Positions 49,412-57,796 of a stretch of 64,000 nucleotides of DNA are shown here, one piece after another. How positions within the stretch are numbered: the stretch's first letter is position 1; the number at the start of each line of letters is the position of its first letter. A program made the translations under genes and the position numbers. Below the pieces are notes generated by a model that ran no database searches, had not been told where the DNA came from, and saw nothing but the letters and a program-made list of their open reading frames with translations. Origin of the DNA: Halodesulfurarchaeum sp. HSR-GB (lineage in GTDB: Archaea > Halobacteriota > Halobacteria > Halobacteriales > Halobacteriaceae); the NCBI RefSeq assembly GCF_031432215.1, contig NZ_JAVKGN010000001.1, positions 1,231,421 through 1,295,420 of the forward strand. The letters run 5' to 3'.

Positions 49412-50053
49412 ATGCCCCAGCAGACACCCACCGAATCGACGCGAAATCACATGAGCGAGCGGGGCGTCAAGGTCGTCTTCGAGATCGTCCCGAAAGGCTC
49501 CTGTTTCATGGACCAACTCGAGGGGCAGGTTTCTGACGTGGAGTTGCACTTCCCGAACGGGGAGTGTCACGCCGACGTTACTGTCTCCGAGGACGACGGC
49601 GTCAATCCCTGCCGCGTGGAGGTAATCAATTACAGCGGCGAAGTCTGCCAGAACTGCCCAGGTACGATCTTCGCGAACTACGGGCTCGTGCCGCGGTTTT
49701 TGGAACGCAACGACGACGAGTTCGTCGTCCAGACTCACCTCCCGACGAACCACGAACTGTCGGACGTGGTCGCCGACCTCCGTGAGGTCTCAGAGCGGGT
49801 CACGGTTGTACGGATCGTGGACATGCGAAACGAGGACGTCTCGGGGATCACCGCGGAGGTCGATCTCTCCCAGCTGACGGCTAAACAGCACGAGGCCCTG
49901 GAATCCGCCGTGAAAGGCGGGTACTACGGGCTCTCACAGGAGGTGTCCCTCGAAGTGTTGGCCGATGAAATCGGCATCTCGACCTCGGCGCTGTCTCAGC
50001 GACTCGCCCGGGCCGAACGCCACGTGTTGACCCAGCTTTTCGAAGAGGAGTAG
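49412..50053 (+). CDS. DmsR-like HTH regulator 1 (bacterio-opsin activator HTH type)
   Basis: 213 residues. An N-terminal sensor domain carries VCQNCPGTIFANYGLVPRF, a CxxCPG motif, and earlier Cys in GSCFMDQL and GECHADV. The C-terminal HTH_10 domain is LTAKQHEALESAVKGGYYGL, then [21 protein letters not shown]. The start was set at the ATG with GGAG 7 bases upstream; in-frame starts at 49355 and 49364 would add 16-19 residues close to the TATAAAG box at 49343. It probably controls the anaerobic reductase genes, with Cys-based redox or metal sensing inferred. Confidence 0.85.
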   Translation: MPQQTPTESTRNHMSERGVKVVFEIVPKGSCFMDQLEGQVSDVELHFPNGECHADVTVSEDDGVNPCRVEVINYSGEVCQNCPGTIFANYGLVPRFLERNDDEFVVQTHLPTNHELSDVVADLREVSERVTVVRIVDMRNEDVSGITAEVDLSQLTAKQHEALESAVKGGYYGLSQEVSLEVLADEIGISTSALSQRLARAERHVLTQLFEEE

Positions 50054-50122: not shown

Positions 50123-50758
50123 ATGGGTGTTCATCGGTCCGCTGCCGTGCCTGCAGGCTCCTCGCAGAGCGAGGAACGCGAACTGCGGATCGTTCTCGAG
50201 ATCGAACGGGGCGGCCCGTGTAGCCTGGACGACCTGGCTGGTCGGGTCCTCGACGTGGACGTGCGGCTGGACGAAGAGACCTGTAACGTCGACGCCACGG
50301 TCAGGGACGACGAGGACGACCAGGTTCGCACGGTGTTCTTTACCGACGACCTCTGTGATCACTGTCCGGGCAAGATCTTCGCGAAACACGACTGTCTGCC
50401 ACGCTACAGACGAATCGACGACGGCTCCTTCATCATGGAGACCTACGCCTCGGATACGGACACGGTCGCGGAGATCGTCAACGAGGTCCGCACCATCTCC
50501 GATCACGTCTCGGTCAAGTCCATTGTGCCGACGGACGACGGTGAGGTCTCGGAGATCGACATCGTGGATCTCACGTCGCTGACGGCCAAACAGCGACGGG
50601 CGCTCCACTACGCGAAGGAAGCGGGCTATTACGATTCCGGGGAGTCAGTCCCCCTGGACCACCTGGCGGAGCGAATGGGTGTCTCCACGTCCGCGCTCTC
50701 CCAGCTGCTTCAGCGTGCGGAGGCAAACGTTCTCCGCCAACTCGACTGTGACTGTTGA
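50123..50758 (+). CDS. DmsR-like HTH regulator 2
   Basis: 211 residues, a paralogue of the previous gene: LCDHCPGKIFAKHDCLPRY in the sensor part and LTAKQRRALHYAKEAGYYDS with HLAERMGVSTSALSQLLQRAE in the HTH_10 part. The Cys-rich C-terminus ends in DCDC. It lies directly upstream of the rhodanese gene. Confidence 0.85.
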   Translation: MGVHRSAAVPAGSSQSEERELRIVLEIERGGPCSLDDLAGRVLDVDVRLDEETCNVDATVRDDEDDQVRTVFFTDDLCDHCPGKIFAKHDCLPRYRRIDDGSFIMETYASDTDTVAEIVNEVRTISDHVSVKSIVPTDDGEVSEIDIVDLTSLTAKQRRALHYAKEAGYYDSGESVPLDHLAERMGVSTSALSQLLQRAEANVLRQLDCDC

Positions 50759-50799
50759 CCGGGCCGTGTGACAGGCTCCCACGAAATGTGGGGCACCCC

Positions 50800-50825
50800 T
50801 TATAAAACCTAAACCGATCCCGAGT
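50800..50825 (+). promoter_or_regulatory. promoter/operator of the rhodanese gene
   Basis: TTATAAAACC followed by TAAACCGATCCCGAGT. The block differs at only two of 26 positions from the one at 52232-52257 before the reductase operon. It spans the TATA box and the region up to the likely transcript start. Confidence 0.65.
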
Positions 50826-50861
50826 CACGGTCATCCTTGAAGCACTCCTATAACTACGTGT

Positions 50862-52136
50862 ATGGAGCGAAACATCAACCGTCGACGGTTCCTCGAGATC
50901 TCCGGTGCCGCAGGAATGGCCGCGATCGCCGGCTGTGCCGGTGATGGTGAGGACACGCCGACAGACACGCCGGAACCGACCACGGCGGAACCGACCACGG
51001 AAGAGCCCACGACCGAAGAGCCCGCGGCGGATTATACGCCGCCCACCGAAACCGAGAACGCGCTGGTCGAGCCGGCGACGCTCAAGGAATGGGTGGACGC
51101 GGAACTCGTCAACAGCGACGACGTGTACGCCGATCCACGTGTAGCGGTCATTCGTGTCGACGCCGGCAACTACGACTCGGGTCACGTTCCGGGCGCTGTT
51201 CCGCTCGCCAGTGACGATGCCGAGGGGTCGGCGACACTCGCGACGACACGTGTCGAGGGCCTCGCTCAGACACAGAAACTCGTCCCGCACGGGGAGACCG
51301 TCGACCAGATCATCCAGAACGCTGGTGTCGGGCCAAACACGACGATCGTGCTGGCCGGCGACAACCCGATGTACGCCGCACGGGCCTACTGGGTACTTCG
51401 GTTCTGGGGCTTCCCCCGCGAGCGCGTGAAAGTCCTCCAGGGCGGATCGAGTGCCTACGACGACGAGTTCGGCCTGGTTTACGAGGACGTCCAGACGCCG
51501 GATACGAATTACACCGTCAAGGGATTCGAGGAGCCGAACTACAACAGCCGCAAGGGCCTAAACGAGCTGATTCAGGACGTCGATGCAATCAACGCGGGCG
51601 AAGACGCCCCGTCGATCCTCGACCAGCGTGGTGAGGGCGACGGCGAGGGCGAAGCGAAGATCGCCGGCAGTCATATCGACCAGGCCGGGGCCTACATCGA
51701 CGGCGACAGCTTCACCGCGCCGAACCCGTGGAAGTCCGCTTCCGAGATCGAGGAGCACGTCAACGGGTACGAGGGCGTCGACGCGGCGAACGGCGACATC
51801 GTGACCATGTGTCACAGCGGGTTCAAGGGCACGATCGCCTTCTTCGCTCTCGACGGGATCGTCGGCAACGAAAACGTCGCGCTGTACGACGGCTCCTGGA
51901 GCTTCAGTTGGAGCCAGTACAACGGCGAGCAGGACCCGACTCCCAACGAAGCGTGGCGGACCGACATCAACGAACGGACCGTTGGCGAGATCACGGACAC
52001 GAGTCAGCTCGATATCGATCCGGATCTCAACGCGGAGCTGACGGAATTGGCGACACTCGACGCGAACCAGGTCAAGAAGGACGCCATCGAGTACATCGTT
52101 GGGGACACGAGCGGCGGCTTCGGCTGCGGCTCGTAA
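50862..52136 (+). CDS. Tat-exported lipoprotein sulfurtransferase (tandem rhodanese)
   Basis: 424 residues. The twin-arginine signal is INRRRFLEISGAAG, with the lipobox Cys at residue 25 (AGCAG) and a Thr/Glu/Pro-rich tether. Two rhodanese domains follow. The first has no Cys in its loop (VLAGDNPMYAARAYW); the second has catalytic Cys317 in MCHSGFKGTIAFF. This matches the thiosulfate/3-mercaptopyruvate sulfurtransferase layout. The C-terminus ends in GGFGCGS, with a second Cys. On the outer membrane face it could deliver or mobilise sulfane sulfur for the reductase downstream. Confidence 0.88.
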   Translation: MERNINRRRFLEISGAAGMAAIAGCAGDGEDTPTDTPEPTTAEPTTEEPTTEEPAADYTPPTETENALVEPATLKEWVDAELVNSDDVYADPRVAVIRVDAGNYDSGHVPGAVPLASDDAEGSATLATTRVEGLAQTQKLVPHGETVDQIIQNAGVGPNTTIVLAGDNPMYAARAYWVLRFWGFPRERVKVLQGGSSAYDDEFGLVYEDVQTPDTNYTVKGFEEPNYNSRKGLNELIQDVDAINAGEDAPSILDQRGEGDGEGEAKIAGSHIDQAGAYIDGDSFTAPNPWKSASEIEEHVNGYEGVDAANGDIVTMCHSGFKGTIAFFALDGIVGNENVALYDGSWSFSWSQYNGEQDPTPNEAWRTDINERTVGEITDTSQLDIDPDLNAELTELATLDANQVKKDAIEYIVGDTSGGFGCGS

Positions 52137-52231
52137 GCGAATCGACCCGGCCCAGAGTTTTCTCCGATTTTTCGTGCTCGTCGAGCGCCGCCCTAACTCC
52201 CTCGATATCGTGGGACCAACTCACACAGAGG

Positions 52232-52257
52232 TTATAAAACCTTAACCGGTCCCGAGT
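52232..52257 (+). promoter_or_regulatory. promoter/operator of the reductase operon
   Basis: TTATAAAACC followed by TTAACCGGTCCCGAGT, 24 of 26 bases identical to 50800-50825. The reductase ATG is about 145 bases further on, leaving a long leader that contains a short ORF. Confidence 0.65.
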
Positions 52258-52301
52258 GTGGGCTATCTCGGTGGAGTCCCCTGCACTAGTTGTAGAGAGC
52301 C

Positions 52302-52406
52302 ATGCGCTTACCGAGCAGACACACATCGGATTCGACGGTGATCCGAGGACAAGACGACAGTTCGGAACCGCCCACGACTGGGTGGTGTGGAGGTGCCGAT
52401 CGATGA
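52302..52406 (+). other. possible 34-residue leader ORF before the reductase
   Basis: The ATG at 52302 (MRLPSRHTSDSTVIRGQ...) runs 34 codons to a TGA (52404-52406) that overlaps the reductase ATG (52403-52405). GGAGGTG, a perfect Shine-Dalgarno, lies 7 bases before the reductase start. No family resemblance is seen, and translation is unproven. Confidence 0.35.
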
Positions 52407-54706
52407 GTAACCAGGCCCAGAGTTCCAGCGGGCTGACCCGCCGGACGTTGCTGAAGGCAGGGAGTGCCGCCGCCGGTGCAGTCGCGCTCGGTGGCTGTCT
52501 CTCCAGTGACGATGGGACCGATTCGGGCGGCGCGGACGTCTCTAAGGCATTCAGTAACTGCTGGATGTGCTCGCACAACTGCGGGCAGGAGGTGACCGTC
52601 GTCGACGGGTCGGTCGTGAACATCACGGGTGTCGATGGTCATCCCCGGGGGAGTGCCGGCCCGGGAACCGAAGGGACCCTCTGTCCGAAGGGACTGGCCC
52701 AGCAGGACAAGACTCACGATCCAAAACGGGTCAAGGAGCCACACATCCGGAAGGACGGCGAACTGCAGAAGGTCAGCTGGGATGAGGCCTTCGAGTACAC
52801 CGCCGACCGGCTGGTCAGCTTCGCGGACGAATACGGCGCGGAGACCTTCCTCGACGCCACGAGCTGGGCCGAAACGTCGATATTCCGGACCATCTGGCGT
52901 GATCTTTACGGGTCACCCGAACGCATCAGCCGCGGGATCCACGTCTGTGCGGGACCGACCTTCGTCACCGGCGGTATGATGGGCGTGGGTTCGAACAACC
53001 GCGTCCCGGACTACCAGAACAGCGATTACATCATCGCCTGGGGCCGCAACCAGCTCAACTCCTTCGCCGGGCAGTTCGAGGCCAAGGGCACACTGGAGGC
53101 CATCGAGAACCGGGGCGCGACCCTGGTCACGATCGACCCCCAGCACACCATCACCGCCGAGAAGTCCGACAAGTGGCTCCCGATCGAGCCCCGGACCGAC
53201 GGCGCGCTGGCCCTGGCGATGGCCAACGTCATCATCGAGGAGGAGCTCTACGACGAGGATTTCGTCGAGAACTACACCTACGGGTTCGACGCCTACAGGG
53301 AAGCGGCTGCGGACATGCCGCCGGAGGACGCGGCTGAGATTACGGGCATTCCCGCCGAGGACATCCGGGAAGTCGCCCGTGGCTTCGCGGAGGCGGCCCC
53401 CCGAGCGGGCATCTCGGTCTGGACCGGGACGGCACAGATGGGCAACGGCTGGAAGGCCACCCAGAACATCACCGCGCTCAACGGCCTCGTCGGGAACATC
53501 GACCGACCCGGCGGCCTGCGGCTCTGGGAGTACCCGGGAACGGCCTCCTTCGGACAGGTCTGTGAACAGGACTACACGAACCGCGCCGAGTTCCGGGAGC
53601 CGGCACTGAAGAAATACGACGAGTACAGCGACTATCCGGTCCGGCACATCGAGGGTATCGCCCACAACCTCGTGCCCGAAATGGTCGACAACGGCCACAT
53701 CAATGGCATTGTTGTGCACCACGACGACCCGTTGAAGGACGGGAACGCGGACGAGTGGGTCGAGGCCATCGAGGAGATGGCACTCGTCATCTCGATCGAC
53801 GCCTACTGGAACGGCGTCTCCCGGAACGCGGATATCGTCCTTCCCGAGGCGACCTCTCTGGAGAAGGACACGCTTGGCACTGGCAACTGGTCGGCCTACC
53901 CCAAGCACAAGTGGGTCACCGGCGGCAAGGCAGCCGTCGAGCCGCAGTGGAACACGAAACCGGACTTCGACATCCTGACCGGCATCGCGTCGGCGATGGC
54001 GGAGAAGACGGACAACGACGACTGGCGGATCTTCGAGCAGTGGGACTCCCACGAGGAGTTCATCGACGACCAGCTTTCGACGCTGGATCTCACTCTCGAA
54101 GAACTCTCGAGCGGCGAGAAGAACTACGAGCTGGTCGAAGAGTACGACTACGAGAAGTGGAAGGACAACGATAACTTCGTCTTCCGCTTCGACCTCGATC
54201 AGGTCGGAAGCTTCGCCCAGGCTGCGGAGGAAGCCGGTATGGACACGGCACCCGAGTGGATCCCACCGGGAACCTATGGGGACTCGACCAGCGACGAGTA
54301 CCCGCTTGAGTTCTACGACGTGCGGTCGGTTTTCTTCTCCCACGGGAGCAACCAGCCCCACGAGCGCCTGCGGGATCACTTCGCGAAACGCAACGATCTC
54401 AACGAGGAGGATTACCGGGGCAACTACCTCCACCTCAACCCGAAGGACGCCGAGCCACGGGGCATCGAGACCGGTGACATGGTACAGGTGGAGTCCGAGT
54501 CCGGCAGTGGCGAACTCATGGCCCACGTCACGGAGAACGCCCGTCCCGGCTTTGTCACTGCCGAGTATGGCTTCGGCGAGACCTCGGCGACGCCGGACGG
54601 CGAGGGTATGAACACGATGACACTTCACGACAAACAGATGGACCCGATTACGGGACAGGTGGACAGGCACATCGCCGTCGATGTCAAACCCGCGGGGGGT
54701 GACTGA
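52403..54706 (+). CDS. exported molybdopterin oxidoreductase, polysulfide/thiosulfate-reductase type
   Basis: 767 residues. The Tat signal (LTRRTLLKAG) ends in a lipobox Cys32 (LGGC). The [4Fe-4S] motif C53, C56, C60, C94 (CWMCSHNC...LCPKG) and a likely molybdenum ligand C182 (GIHVCAGPTF) are intact. A Cys ligand and NrfD partner favour the PsrA/PhsA/TtrA group over classical DMSO reductase. GRNQLNSFAG and the C-terminal cofactor-binding region (HGSNQPHERLRD; LHLNPKDAEPRGIETGDMV) complete it. It is the catalytic subunit on the outer face. The electron acceptor is inferred, not proven. Confidence 0.92.
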   Translation: MSNQAQSSSGLTRRTLLKAGSAAAGAVALGGCLSSDDGTDSGGADVSKAFSNCWMCSHNCGQEVTVVDGSVVNITGVDGHPRGSAGPGTEGTLCPKGLAQQDKTHDPKRVKEPHIRKDGELQKVSWDEAFEYTADRLVSFADEYGAETFLDATSWAETSIFRTIWRDLYGSPERISRGIHVCAGPTFVTGGMMGVGSNNRVPDYQNSDYIIAWGRNQLNSFAGQFEAKGTLEAIENRGATLVTIDPQHTITAEKSDKWLPIEPRTDGALALAMANVIIEEELYDEDFVENYTYGFDAYREAAADMPPEDAAEITGIPAEDIREVARGFAEAAPRAGISVWTGTAQMGNGWKATQNITALNGLVGNIDRPGGLRLWEYPGTASFGQVCEQDYTNRAEFREPALKKYDEYSDYPVRHIEGIAHNLVPEMVDNGHINGIVVHHDDPLKDGNADEWVEAIEEMALVISIDAYWNGVSRNADIVLPEATSLEKDTLGTGNWSAYPKHKWVTGGKAAVEPQWNTKPDFDILTGIASAMAEKTDNDDWRIFEQWDSHEEFIDDQLSTLDLTLEELSSGEKNYELVEEYDYEKWKDNDNFVFRFDLDQVGSFAQAAEEAGMDTAPEWIPPGTYGDSTSDEYPLEFYDVRSVFFSHGSNQPHERLRDHFAKRNDLNEEDYRGNYLHLNPKDAEPRGIETGDMVQVESESGSGELMAHVTENARPGFVTAEYGFGETSATPDGEGMNTMTLHDKQMDPITGQVDRHIAVDVKPAGGD

Positions 54707-54708
54707 CG

Positions 54709-55374
54709 ATGGCAGTCGAAAGCGAACACTGGGTCTTCTACTTCGACCCGAACCGGTGTATCGGCTGTCACGCCTGCTCGGTCTCCTGCAAGCAGTTCCA
54801 CGGTCGGGGCTCGGATACCGACGACTGGCGAACGGTCACCCACCACCAGAAGGGGACCTACCCCGACGTCGAGGACGTCCCGCTGTCGATGTCCTGCATG
54901 CACTGTCACGACGCCCCGTGTGAGAAGGTCTGTCCGACAAACGCCATCGAGAAACGCGAGAGCGACGGGATCGTGACGATCAACCGGGACGACTGCATCG
55001 GCTGCAAGTACTGTGGCTGGGCCTGTCCCTTCGGCGCGCCGGTTTACGGCGACGACGGGCTCATGTCCAAGTGTAACATGTGTCTCGGGCGCGGTCCCGG
55101 CGGCGGGGCTGATGTCGAGGACACGCCCAAACACGAACTCGAGGACCAGGTCGAGCCGAACTGCGTCTCGGACTGTGTCGGCGAGGCCATCAAGGCCGGC
55201 CCGCAGAAGGAGATCATCGAAGAGGCCTCCCAGGCTGCCGCGGAACGCTTCAGGTCTGGGGCGGTGGCCAACGGTCGCGTGATCGTCGAACCGCTCCAGG
55301 ATAGCACCTCGGCCGTCGACGGAAGCGTCGGCGGGACGAAGGAAGTCACCACGCCGTACAACGCAGGGGACTAA
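54709..55374 (+). CDS. reductase iron-sulfur subunit (four-cluster ferredoxin)
   Basis: 221 residues with four [4Fe-4S] sites: CIGCHACSVSC, CMHCHDAPCEKVCP, CIGCKYCGWACPFG, and CNMC plus CVSDC. This is the PsrB/DmsB electron-transfer subunit, which carries electrons from the membrane subunit to the molybdenum site. It has no signal, so it is probably co-exported with the Tat substrate. It starts two bases after the catalytic subunit stop. Confidence 0.95.
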   Translation: MAVESEHWVFYFDPNRCIGCHACSVSCKQFHGRGSDTDDWRTVTHHQKGTYPDVEDVPLSMSCMHCHDAPCEKVCPTNAIEKRESDGIVTINRDDCIGCKYCGWACPFGAPVYGDDGLMSKCNMCLGRGPGGGADVEDTPKHELEDQVEPNCVSDCVGEAIKAGPQKEIIEEASQAAAERFRSGAVANGRVIVEPLQDSTSAVDGSVGGTKEVTTPYNAGD

Positions 55375-55376
55375 GC

Positions 55377-56519
55377 ATGAGCGCGATAGGAGCCAGTGAA
55401 TGGCTATGGTTACCCCACGTCCACTGGGGCGTGTTCATCGCCACGTACCTCTTCCTGGGGGGCGTGGCCGGTGGTTCGTACCTCACCTCGACCTGGGCCA
55501 GTTTCATGAAGAGCCTGATGGACGCCGACAACTGGCTCGGCCGCCTGCTACTGGCCCGGACCGACGATCCGGAACACCGCTTCGCGTGCGCGGAGACCTC
55601 CCGCTGGGGTTCGGTCATCGCCCTGATCGCCATCGGGGTCGGGAGCATCGCCCTGCTCTCACACCTCGGCGCGCCGCTGCGCGCGCTGACCTTCGCGTGG
55701 AACTTCACGAACTACGGCTCCTGGATGGTCATCGGGACCTGGATGATCATCACGTTCTCCCTGATCGCGGTCCTGGAGACCCTCTGGCTGCACTTCGGCC
55801 GTGATCTACGGGGCAAATCCGGTCTGAGTCTCTTCCCCCGAAAGATCCTCGGATGGATCGACGGGGTGATGCCCTGGCGGACGGAGCGGGGTATCGTCTG
55901 GCTGCTCGACCGGCTCGCGGACATCACGCGACTCCCGAACCGTGTCTGGGGTGCCTTCCGGATCTTCGGTGCAGTCGTTGCCGTGCTCGTCGTGGTCTAC
56001 ACGGCGATGCTCCTCAGTGACATCGCGGCGGTGCCGGTCTGGAGCCGAACCTACCTCCCCTTCATCTTCCTGATGAGTGGCGTCTCGACGGGTATCTCCG
56101 CGGCGCTTTTGGGAACGGTCATGAGCGGTGGCGCGCTGACCCGTGTCAATCACCGGTTCTGCCTGACCGACGACGCGATCATCATCGTGGAGCTGGTCGC
56201 CATCGGAGCGCTGCTGTCCTTCCTCTCGGGGTCGGCTAACCTCGGGGCACAGGCGACACTCTCCGAACTGCTGGGGACCTATCAGCTGGCCTTCATCGGT
56301 GGGGTCCTGATCCTTGGGACCGGGCTCCCCGTGGTGATATCGCTGACGGTGACCATGTTACACCAGTTCACGGACTTCGACGAGACGCCCTTCGGGCGCA
56401 AAGTGCTCACCGGAGGCTACGCGACGAAGTACGTCCTGGTGCTGGTCGGCGGCTACCTGCTGCGCTATGTCGTGTTGCTGGCTGCCGTGAAAACCCCGCT
56501 TGCCGTCCCCGGACTCTAG
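55377..56519 (+). CDS. NrfD/PsrC-type membrane quinol-oxidising subunit
   Basis: 380 residues with eight to nine spans. The N-terminal WLPHVHWGVFIATYLFLGGVAGGSYL is the NrfD signature. It takes electrons from menaquinol and passes them to the Fe-S subunit. It starts two bases after the previous stop. Distinct from the DmsC family, it supports assignment to the polysulfide/thiosulfate/tetrathionate reductase type. Confidence 0.94.
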   Translation: MSAIGASEWLWLPHVHWGVFIATYLFLGGVAGGSYLTSTWASFMKSLMDADNWLGRLLLARTDDPEHRFACAETSRWGSVIALIAIGVGSIALLSHLGAPLRALTFAWNFTNYGSWMVIGTWMIITFSLIAVLETLWLHFGRDLRGKSGLSLFPRKILGWIDGVMPWRTERGIVWLLDRLADITRLPNRVWGAFRIFGAVVAVLVVVYTAMLLSDIAAVPVWSRTYLPFIFLMSGVSTGISAALLGTVMSGGALTRVNHRFCLTDDAIIIVELVAIGALLSFLSGSANLGAQATLSELLGTYQLAFIGGVLILGTGLPVVISLTVTMLHQFTDFDETPFGRKVLTGGYATKYVLVLVGGYLLRYVVLLAAVKTPLAVPGL

Positions 56520-56520
56520 C

Positions 56521-57186
56521 ATGGCTGATCACCATCGTGAGGAGCGGACGTTGCCGGCCCGCGGATCCTGGGAACAGCTCCAGGTGCTGCTGTCGAACTG
56601 CCTGCGCCACCCAGATGAGGACCTCAGGCGGGCTATCGAGGACGGGAGCCTCTACGAGGACCTCTCCCGGACGATGGCGGACGTGGGGCTCACTGAGCCC
56701 TCGCCTCCGCCGTCGATCGACGGTCGAAATCTGACCGAAGACTACGAGGCGCTGTTCGGGGCCTTTCGACGGCCCTTCGCCCCGCCCGCTGCTTCCCCGT
56801 ACAAGGAATGGTACGGGGATCACGAGGGCGGCCTGATGGAGGGCCCGCCAGCCACGGCGATGGAACGGCGCTACGCGGCCATGGACGCCGCCGTTCCGGA
56901 GGCTTACCCGGCCGATCACCTCGCGCTGGAACTGGAGTACGCGAGCGTGTTGACCGAGGCCGCGGAGATCGATGAGCTGGCCACGTTCGTCGAATCGGAA
57001 CTGGACTGGATCGACCCCTTCCAGGAGCTGGTTGACGCGGCCGTCGCCGAGGCGCCGTTCCACCGGTGGTGTGTGGACGTGCTGGGCGAGGTTCTCGATC
57101 ACCTTCGGGCGACCCTCGGCGTTTCGGCACCGGAACCGAAAGCGGTCGAACAGATGGCCGAGCGAGCGAGATCGAACGTCGAGTGA
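56521..57186 (+). CDS. TorD/DmsD-type molybdoenzyme chaperone 2
   Basis: 221 residues, a paralogue of the chaperone at 48.6 kb: SPYKEWYGDHEGGLMEGPPA, then MERRYAAMD and YPADHLALELEYASVL. It is one base after the NrfD stop and so belongs to the operon. It is the likely dedicated chaperone of the reductase. Confidence 0.9.
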   Translation: MADHHREERTLPARGSWEQLQVLLSNCLRHPDEDLRRAIEDGSLYEDLSRTMADVGLTEPSPPPSIDGRNLTEDYEALFGAFRRPFAPPAASPYKEWYGDHEGGLMEGPPATAMERRYAAMDAAVPEAYPADHLALELEYASVLTEAAEIDELATFVESELDWIDPFQELVDAAVAEAPFHRWCVDVLGEVLDHLRATLGVSAPEPKAVEQMAERARSNVE

Positions 57187-57187
57187 C

Positions 57188-57796
57188 ATGGACGACCCGA
57201 CCGGGTTGAATCGCAGCTCCTACCGGCTCGAATTCCGGGTCAGACCGACCCGAACGTGTCCGGTCCGTGAGTTCGATGGGACGATAACGGATATTTCTGT
57301 CTTCCGCACGGAGGACGGGATCAACTGCGAGCTCGTCGTCCGCGAGGAGGGCGAAACAGCCGTGAAACAGCTCGAACGCCCGCTTTCCAGCCCGTGTGCG
57401 TGCGCGGCGGTTTTCGAGTCCGGGTCCGTTCCACGGGTGCGTCCGTCTCGGTCGGCGGCCGGTGAACTGCTGCTGACTACCTACGTCGACTCCTTCGAGG
57501 CGGCCCAGTCGATCCGGGCCAGGCTGGACGACGTCGCGGACGCTGTCGAACTGGTGGACTACTGGAAGGTCGACCGCGAACAGACAGCCTGGCCCGCCCA
57601 GATCGATCTCGCGGCACTTACCGATTCACGCCGGGAGGCGTTGTTCCGTGCGATCGACGCAGGATACTACGAGCACCCACGACAGACGACCCTCTCGGAG
57701 CTTGCCTCGCTGGCTGGTCTCGACGAGTCAGCCTTCGAAAGTCGGCTTCGCGAGGCCGAACGGGAGATCCTCAGCCAGATTTCCGCCTCGCGGTAG
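57188..57796 (+). CDS. DmsR-like HTH regulator 3 (degenerate sensor)
   Basis: 202 residues. The HTH_10 part (LTDSRREALFRAIDAGYYEHP, SELASLAGLDESAFESRLREAE) is conserved. The sensor part has SSPCACAAVFESG where regulators 1 and 2 have CxxCPG, so the Cys spacing and the Pro-Gly are lost. The ATG is one base after the chaperone 2 stop, so it may autoregulate the operon from its end. Confidence 0.82.
   Translation: MDDPTGLNRSSYRLEFRVRPTRTCPVREFDGTITDISVFRTEDGINCELVVREEGETAVKQLERPLSSPCACAAVFESGSVPRVRPSRSAAGELLLTTYVDSFEAAQSIRARLDDVADAVELVDYWKVDREQTAWPAQIDLAALTDSRREALFRAIDAGYYEHPRQTTLSELASLAGLDESAFESRLREAEREILSQISASR

Follow-up and report, generated by a model that had tools for sequence, protein, structure and literature searches.

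A rhodanese-like carrier, Sud, is thought to feed sulfur to polysulfide reductase (Psr) in Wolinella. The same is thought of the rhodanese-like carrier of haloarchaeal Psr operons (PMC5437934; PMC6176080). In H. formicicum HTSR1, of the genus studied here, the PsrA HTSR_1347 is described as 'co-transcribed' with the rhodanese-like HTSR_1348 and is the most abundant Psr on sulfur, at 3-4 times the other Psr; the authors regard the rhodanese as the supplier of sulfur and describe the polysulfide reductases of this genus as constitutive, which lends no support to a sulfur-specific signal in that system (PMC5437934). In the facultative AArc1, Psr is found only on sulfur, and such psr operons include rhodanese and bacterioopsin-activator-family genes (PMC6176080), a layout shared by our window, the whole stretch of 64,000 nucleotides analysed. 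The accessible parts of both papers report genes and proteins and leave a shared promoter element unmentioned, and our literature search, with most subscription papers outside its reach, found no regulator or promoter element for haloarchaeal sulfur respiration. The earlier note on this DNA had tied the exported sulfurtransferase to the reductase, and the reported co-transcription of HTSR_1347 and HTSR_1348, which we equate with the window genes by adjacency and not by sequence, supports their joint expression. This physiological tie was already known; the new part is the common promoter element and its likely readers.

Regulators of the DmsR/NarO type (bacterioopsin-activator-like, HTH_10) are linked to a molybdopterin reductase operon in the described systems, as members of the same family are here (PMC11218638; PMC10062603). 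The motif CGAAYATDKTYG of NarO-type denitrification regulation is semi-palindromic and is found 66-79 nt upstream of the start codon for nir, nor and nos and 319 nt upstream of it for nar, whereas the window element is non-palindromic and abuts TATA; at one mismatch, CGAAYATDKTYG occurs five times in the window (3.55 expected) and in neither of the two promoters. For TrmBL1 of Pyrococcus, an operator between TATA and start, the position found here, is a known place of repression (PMC4706686). TrmBL1, however, belongs to a different protein family and governs a global regulon through a palindromic site, whereas here only two promoters are concerned. SurR of Pyrococcus is a sulfur-responsive CxxC regulator of sulfur-related genes, with the motif GTTn3AACn5GTT. 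It could be a model for the sensing step, although its family is unrelated, and at one mismatch its motif is absent from both promoters.

The window (Table 1) contains the full set of genes that characterises a haloarchaeal Psr operon, namely psrA, psrB, psrC, a chaperone and an adjacent rhodanese gene, and going by PMC5437934 polysulfide would be the substrate of PsrA; an NCBIfam search of PsrA gave no reductase model above its cut-off. The rhodanese-like protein bears an apparent N-terminal export or lipoprotein signal (RRRFLEISGAAGMAAIAGC, read by eye). Its score against ExtH, an NCBIfam model named for a selenite/tellurite reduction operon, is 220 bits (cut-off 200). In a MAG named Halodesulfurarchaeum (L068), the psrA relative has 84% identity and the rhodanese gene 77%, which places the window in that genus or very close to it.

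Table 1. Genes and core-promoter elements of the psr region, in window coordinates.
Feature	Position	Strand	Remarks
Reg1, DmsR-like regulator (HTH_10, DmsR_N)	49412..50053	+	recognition helix STSALSQRL; candidate binder
Reg2, DmsR-like regulator	50123..50758	+	recognition helix STSALSQLL; Cys conserved at four positions; candidate binder
Core-promoter element, rhodanese gene	50801..50835	+	TATA 50801-50807, CCTAAACCGATCCCGAGT 50808-50825, then loosely conserved; putative start A 50833
Rhodanese-like protein	50862..52136	+	Pfam Rhodanese; NCBIfam NF040901 ExtH above cut-off
Core-promoter element, psrABC	52233..52267	+	TATA 52233-52239, CCTTAACCGGTCCCGAGT 52240-52257, then loosely conserved; putative start A 52265
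psrA-like molybdopterin reductase, catalytic subunit	52403..54706	+	
psrB-like 4Fe-4S subunit	54709..55374	+	
psrC-like membrane subunit (NrfD family)	55377..56519	+	
TorD/NarJ-type chaperone (Nitrate_red_del)	56521..57186	+	
Reg3, the third of the DmsR-like proteins, at the end of the operon	57185..57796	+	without CxxC and SALSQ helix; less likely binder

The two promoters are almost the same over the block that spans 50800-50825 (TTATAAAACCTAAACCGATCCCGAGT) and 52232-52257 (TTATAAAACCTTAACCGGTCCCGAGT): direct comparison confirms the 24 of 26 identical bases given in the earlier note, and by a simple binomial estimate the number of pairs this alike (24/26 or better) that chance would produce in 64 kb is about 0.016. 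With up to three mismatches, these are the only matches to the 26-base pattern in the window and in the genome, and 100 shuffles of the window gave none; the exact 14-mer AACCGRTCCCGAGT, from the AACCGrTCCCGAGT part that had been proposed for a genome scan, is found exactly twice in 2.25 Mb. The likeness runs on to about 50835 and 52267, in the order TATAAAACC, TNAACCGGTCCCGAGT and then a weaker GGNCNATC. A position matrix built from 35 sites reads TATAAAACCTTAACCGGTCCCGAGT, loose columns and then YTAY, and in all 35 the TATA spacing is fixed and free of gaps and the A at offset 32 from the TATA start, about where transcription would be expected to begin, is invariant. The block is a conserved core-promoter element, locked in position. 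Only two sites in the window exceed 5 bits, that of the rhodanese promoter at 46.4 and that of psrABC at 50.7. Known archaeal operators are frequently palindromic; the dyad symmetry of the main motif is not significant over the 34 distinct sites (p 0.79). The short core AACCGGTCCCGAGT at two mismatches proved too loose, with 14 to 30 matches per strand per genome (fewer, 0 to 5, in the backward control), and nothing useful came from scanning 50700-52500 for bacterial-type promoters and terminators.

The same arrangement recurs in relatives. In the family scan, five of 26 genomes, belonging to two genera, each show two matches and no more, separated by about 1.43 kb, with no match in the backward control. 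Among 391 genomes, a sample of the class, seven match the 35-base pattern at up to three mismatches, and in the three that lie outside the family the single match precedes a psrA-like gene with a DmsR-like regulator next to it; the 25-base pattern brings the count to eight of 391, the added match being likewise before psrA. A degenerate pattern with at most one mismatch gave 27 matches in 22 of the 391 genomes, and none backward, 17 of them in genomes whose sites, or identical copies, entered the pattern, and ten in nine genomes (five genera) outside its derivation. All 27 stand directly before psrA or the exported rhodanese gene (16 assigned jointly, plus G275, G062/G261/G234, G000, G001 psrA, G002 and G021, the rhodanese sites of G002 and G021 being assigned from the start of the next reading frame), so that the block does not lie before many unrelated genes, the case that the earlier note had named as counting against it.

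A held-out test covered nine genomes, with 10.5-11.5 kb examined in each. Where one promoter had already been matched, the matrix was asked about its partner, psrA in G177, G190 and G280 and rhodanese in G153, G051, G194 and G325; several of these genomes are congeneric and the nine are not independent cases, and the site was present in seven of seven predicted partner promoters at 23.6-33.8 bits, against a maximum of 6.9 bits in 780 shuffled upstream regions. Both promoters of G084 had been matched beforehand, and the G068 stretch has no rhodanese gene. No further site above 8 bits appeared in the nine stretches. A scan of named genomes by PsrA alignment yielded 60 loci, 24 of them haloarchaeal, and over named and other genomes together 35 of 39 upstream regions of psrA and rhodanese genes carry the motif. 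With a near-identical block before the same two genes in so many relatives, it is very probably their dedicated switch.

Three DmsR-like proteins had been put forward as readers; linkage and recognition helix keep Reg1 (49412) and Reg2 (50123) in place and make Reg3 a less likely one. Reg1 and Reg2 score 50.6 and 50.7 bits for HTH_10 (cut-off 23.1), and 27.9 (barely) and 33.9 bits for DmsR_N (cut-off 27). Together with their linked relatives they have in common the helix S-x-S-A-[LFA]-S-Q-[RL]-L and a CxxC, both of which Reg3 lacks; in the regulator tree, whose branches are long, Reg3 has no settled place. A Reg1/2-type regulator is present at 15 of the 19 named motif loci, and in eight of the nine held-out genomes (G325 has a weak match only); it is not adjacent to the psrA promoter in L052, L053 and L072, and is missing from the stretch examined in L063, L067, L086 and L108. 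In most loci the linked protein is a Reg2 relative, and both types are present in the window and in G021. The idea of Reg2 as sole binder failed, since a Reg1 ortholog is linked instead in both genomes of the second genus, presumably Halanaeroarchaeum, at 57-58%, and in Haloferax marinum (51%). In a set of 21 loci, the more the recognition helices differ, the more the motifs do (r 0.43, p 0.002; r 0.43 when PsrA is taken into account), whereas PsrA distance shows no such correlation (r -0.09). The trend depends on a small number of changes (SAFSQ paired with TTGAG, SAASQ paired with the palindrome) among related rows, and it is contradicted by L054, where a SAFSQ helix goes with the usual CCCGAG motif. 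An alignment of 23 regulators shows C54, C78 and C81 invariant and C33 nearly so, which is compatible with a metal site or a thiol switch. The sensing step cannot be read from structure, because a PDB profile search with the family gave no informative relative (best E 0.077) and Foldseek of an AlphaFold model (mean pLDDT 81, pTM 0.59) no match at E <=0.001 (TM about 0.2).

We consider it likely that the block serves as a dedicated operator for a regulon of two promoters, those of the rhodanese gene and of psrABC, read most probably by Reg1 and/or Reg2. Such an operator would be built into the core promoter itself, abutting TATA and filling the stretch to the transcription start, and would be bound by one or both of the linked regulators. 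Since the same site lies in both promoters, the sulfur-delivering rhodanese and the sulfur-using reductase would rise and fall together. The signal may be perceived through Cys33/54/78/81, as a metal cluster or a thiol switch. A protein sitting between TATA and the start should stand in the way of RNA polymerase, and because of this position we lean, by a modest preference, towards repression, lifted under anaerobic or sulfur-respiring conditions.

As to the sign, an activator acting through the same site and the same Reg1/2 is a possibility to be reckoned with, though not one we expect. It would touch the basal factors downstream of TATA and so offset a weak upstream TFB element, in line with the fixed, gap-free spacing of all 35 sites and with the lack of any conserved BRE-like base upstream; moreover, the related NarO and DmsR are described as activators (PMC11218638). 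However, those archaeal regulators that have been characterised act as repressors when bound downstream of TATA and as activators when bound upstream of it (PMC4706686; PMC5937170; PMC9426492), and with TrmBL1 a site downstream of the promoter led to repression in nine of nine templates (PMC4706686). As to the reader, it seems unlikely that Reg3 or an unlinked regulator is responsible and that the linkage of Reg1/2 is incidental: Reg3-type proteins also stand at the end of several psr operons, and the four named loci without Reg1/2 would fit, but the Reg3 types are diverged and devoid of the common helix and Cys, and the variation of the motif follows the Reg1/2 recognition helix.

A location in the core promoter, start region included, would also suit a basal element for a particular TFB/TBP pair, or simply a generally strong promoter. 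A basal factor should have many targets, whereas at up to three mismatches the psrA/rhodanese pair is the sole match in four of five genomes and the fifth has one more, so that we hold this to be very improbable. We give next to no weight to the idea that one promoter was recently copied, by duplication or gene conversion, without regulatory meaning, despite the two genes being neighbours, because both promoters have retained the element in different families within unrelated flanks. When 23 psrA promoters (near-duplicates L017 and L018 dropped) and ten rhodanese promoters were compared, identity upstream of TATA was 0.26-0.29, as in unrelated DNA, against 0.81-0.82 at TATA, 0.61-0.70 in the element and 0.58-0.62 in the start region; these flanks showed no BRE or other upstream element, and in the ten same-locus pairs one six-base stretch before TATA reached 0.47. 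In G325, moreover, the rhodanese genes are oriented away from psrA, and the one that comes first keeps its own site, each of the divergent genes having its own copy. Unrelated flanks and divergent copies refute duplication as a full explanation. At L241:3470-5722 (-) we also observed a tandem pair of rhodanese genes in divergent orientation to psrA, the first of them preceded by one copy of the motif.

In the diverged subgroup of L057 and L058, a perfect 13-base palindrome, CTTAACAGTTAAG, directly follows TATA and replaces the element before psrA (at about 4052-4086 in L057 and in the corresponding position in L058), the only variant that is a perfect palindrome, and the regulator has an altered helix (SAASQ, RAT). 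The motif is absent from L066 and L069, which have a more distant psrA type (45% and 50%), and from all nine paralogous psrA loci that share genomes with the element (L162-L166, L172-L175), where the best score, 6.7, falls inside a coding region. Weaker extra copies in the opposite direction, divergent from psrA or apart from it, at 12-26 bits, occur in Haloferacaceae at L053:9435 (-), L052:9490 (-) and L072:4202 (-), and point toward a gene for an ApbC/Mrp-like P-loop protein about 0.45-0.54 kb away (neighbour gene checked in L053 and L072; L052 by score alone). Nothing else in the data points to a further target. In relatives (L052, L053, L057, L058, L060, L061, L065, L066, L067, L069, L071, L072, L108, L017, L018), motif and psrA are separated by a short open reading frame, about 70-86 codons long, with the conserved core YDQELGRxxG...EFGDDYxP; the window has no such conserved frame there.

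A paralogous psrA operon, which has a regulator of its own with the helix QQALSQ, bears another conserved block, TATAAAAAGNNCTTGTCNNTGAAAGA, just after TATA. This block (TATAAAAAGNNCTTGTCNNTGAAAGANNAG; G000:C1:981020-981049 in L234, also L227 and L225) is found once each in three of the 26 family genomes, all of this genus, with a control of 0, and since two of the three are near-identical relatives it is a lead only. By eye, a dmsA-type (DMSO-reductase-type) promoter in L221 has a palindrome, CTGATTATCAG, directly after TATA, beside a DmsR-like gene, and L222 and L223 have shorter ones. We tentatively raise the doubtful but more general idea that DmsR-type proteins are gene-specific core-promoter factors, which would sit in fixed phase downstream of TATA, with no visible BRE, and activate, each reductase operon having its own TATA-abutting word and regulator paralog.

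The specificity of the element, with 27 of 27 matches in 391 genomes standing before the two genes, means that it marks sulfur-respiring operons from DNA alone, and it names two candidate regulators for the psr and rhodanese genes. With a site set between TATA and the start, it would also provide a clean case of how archaeal regulators work inside the core promoter.
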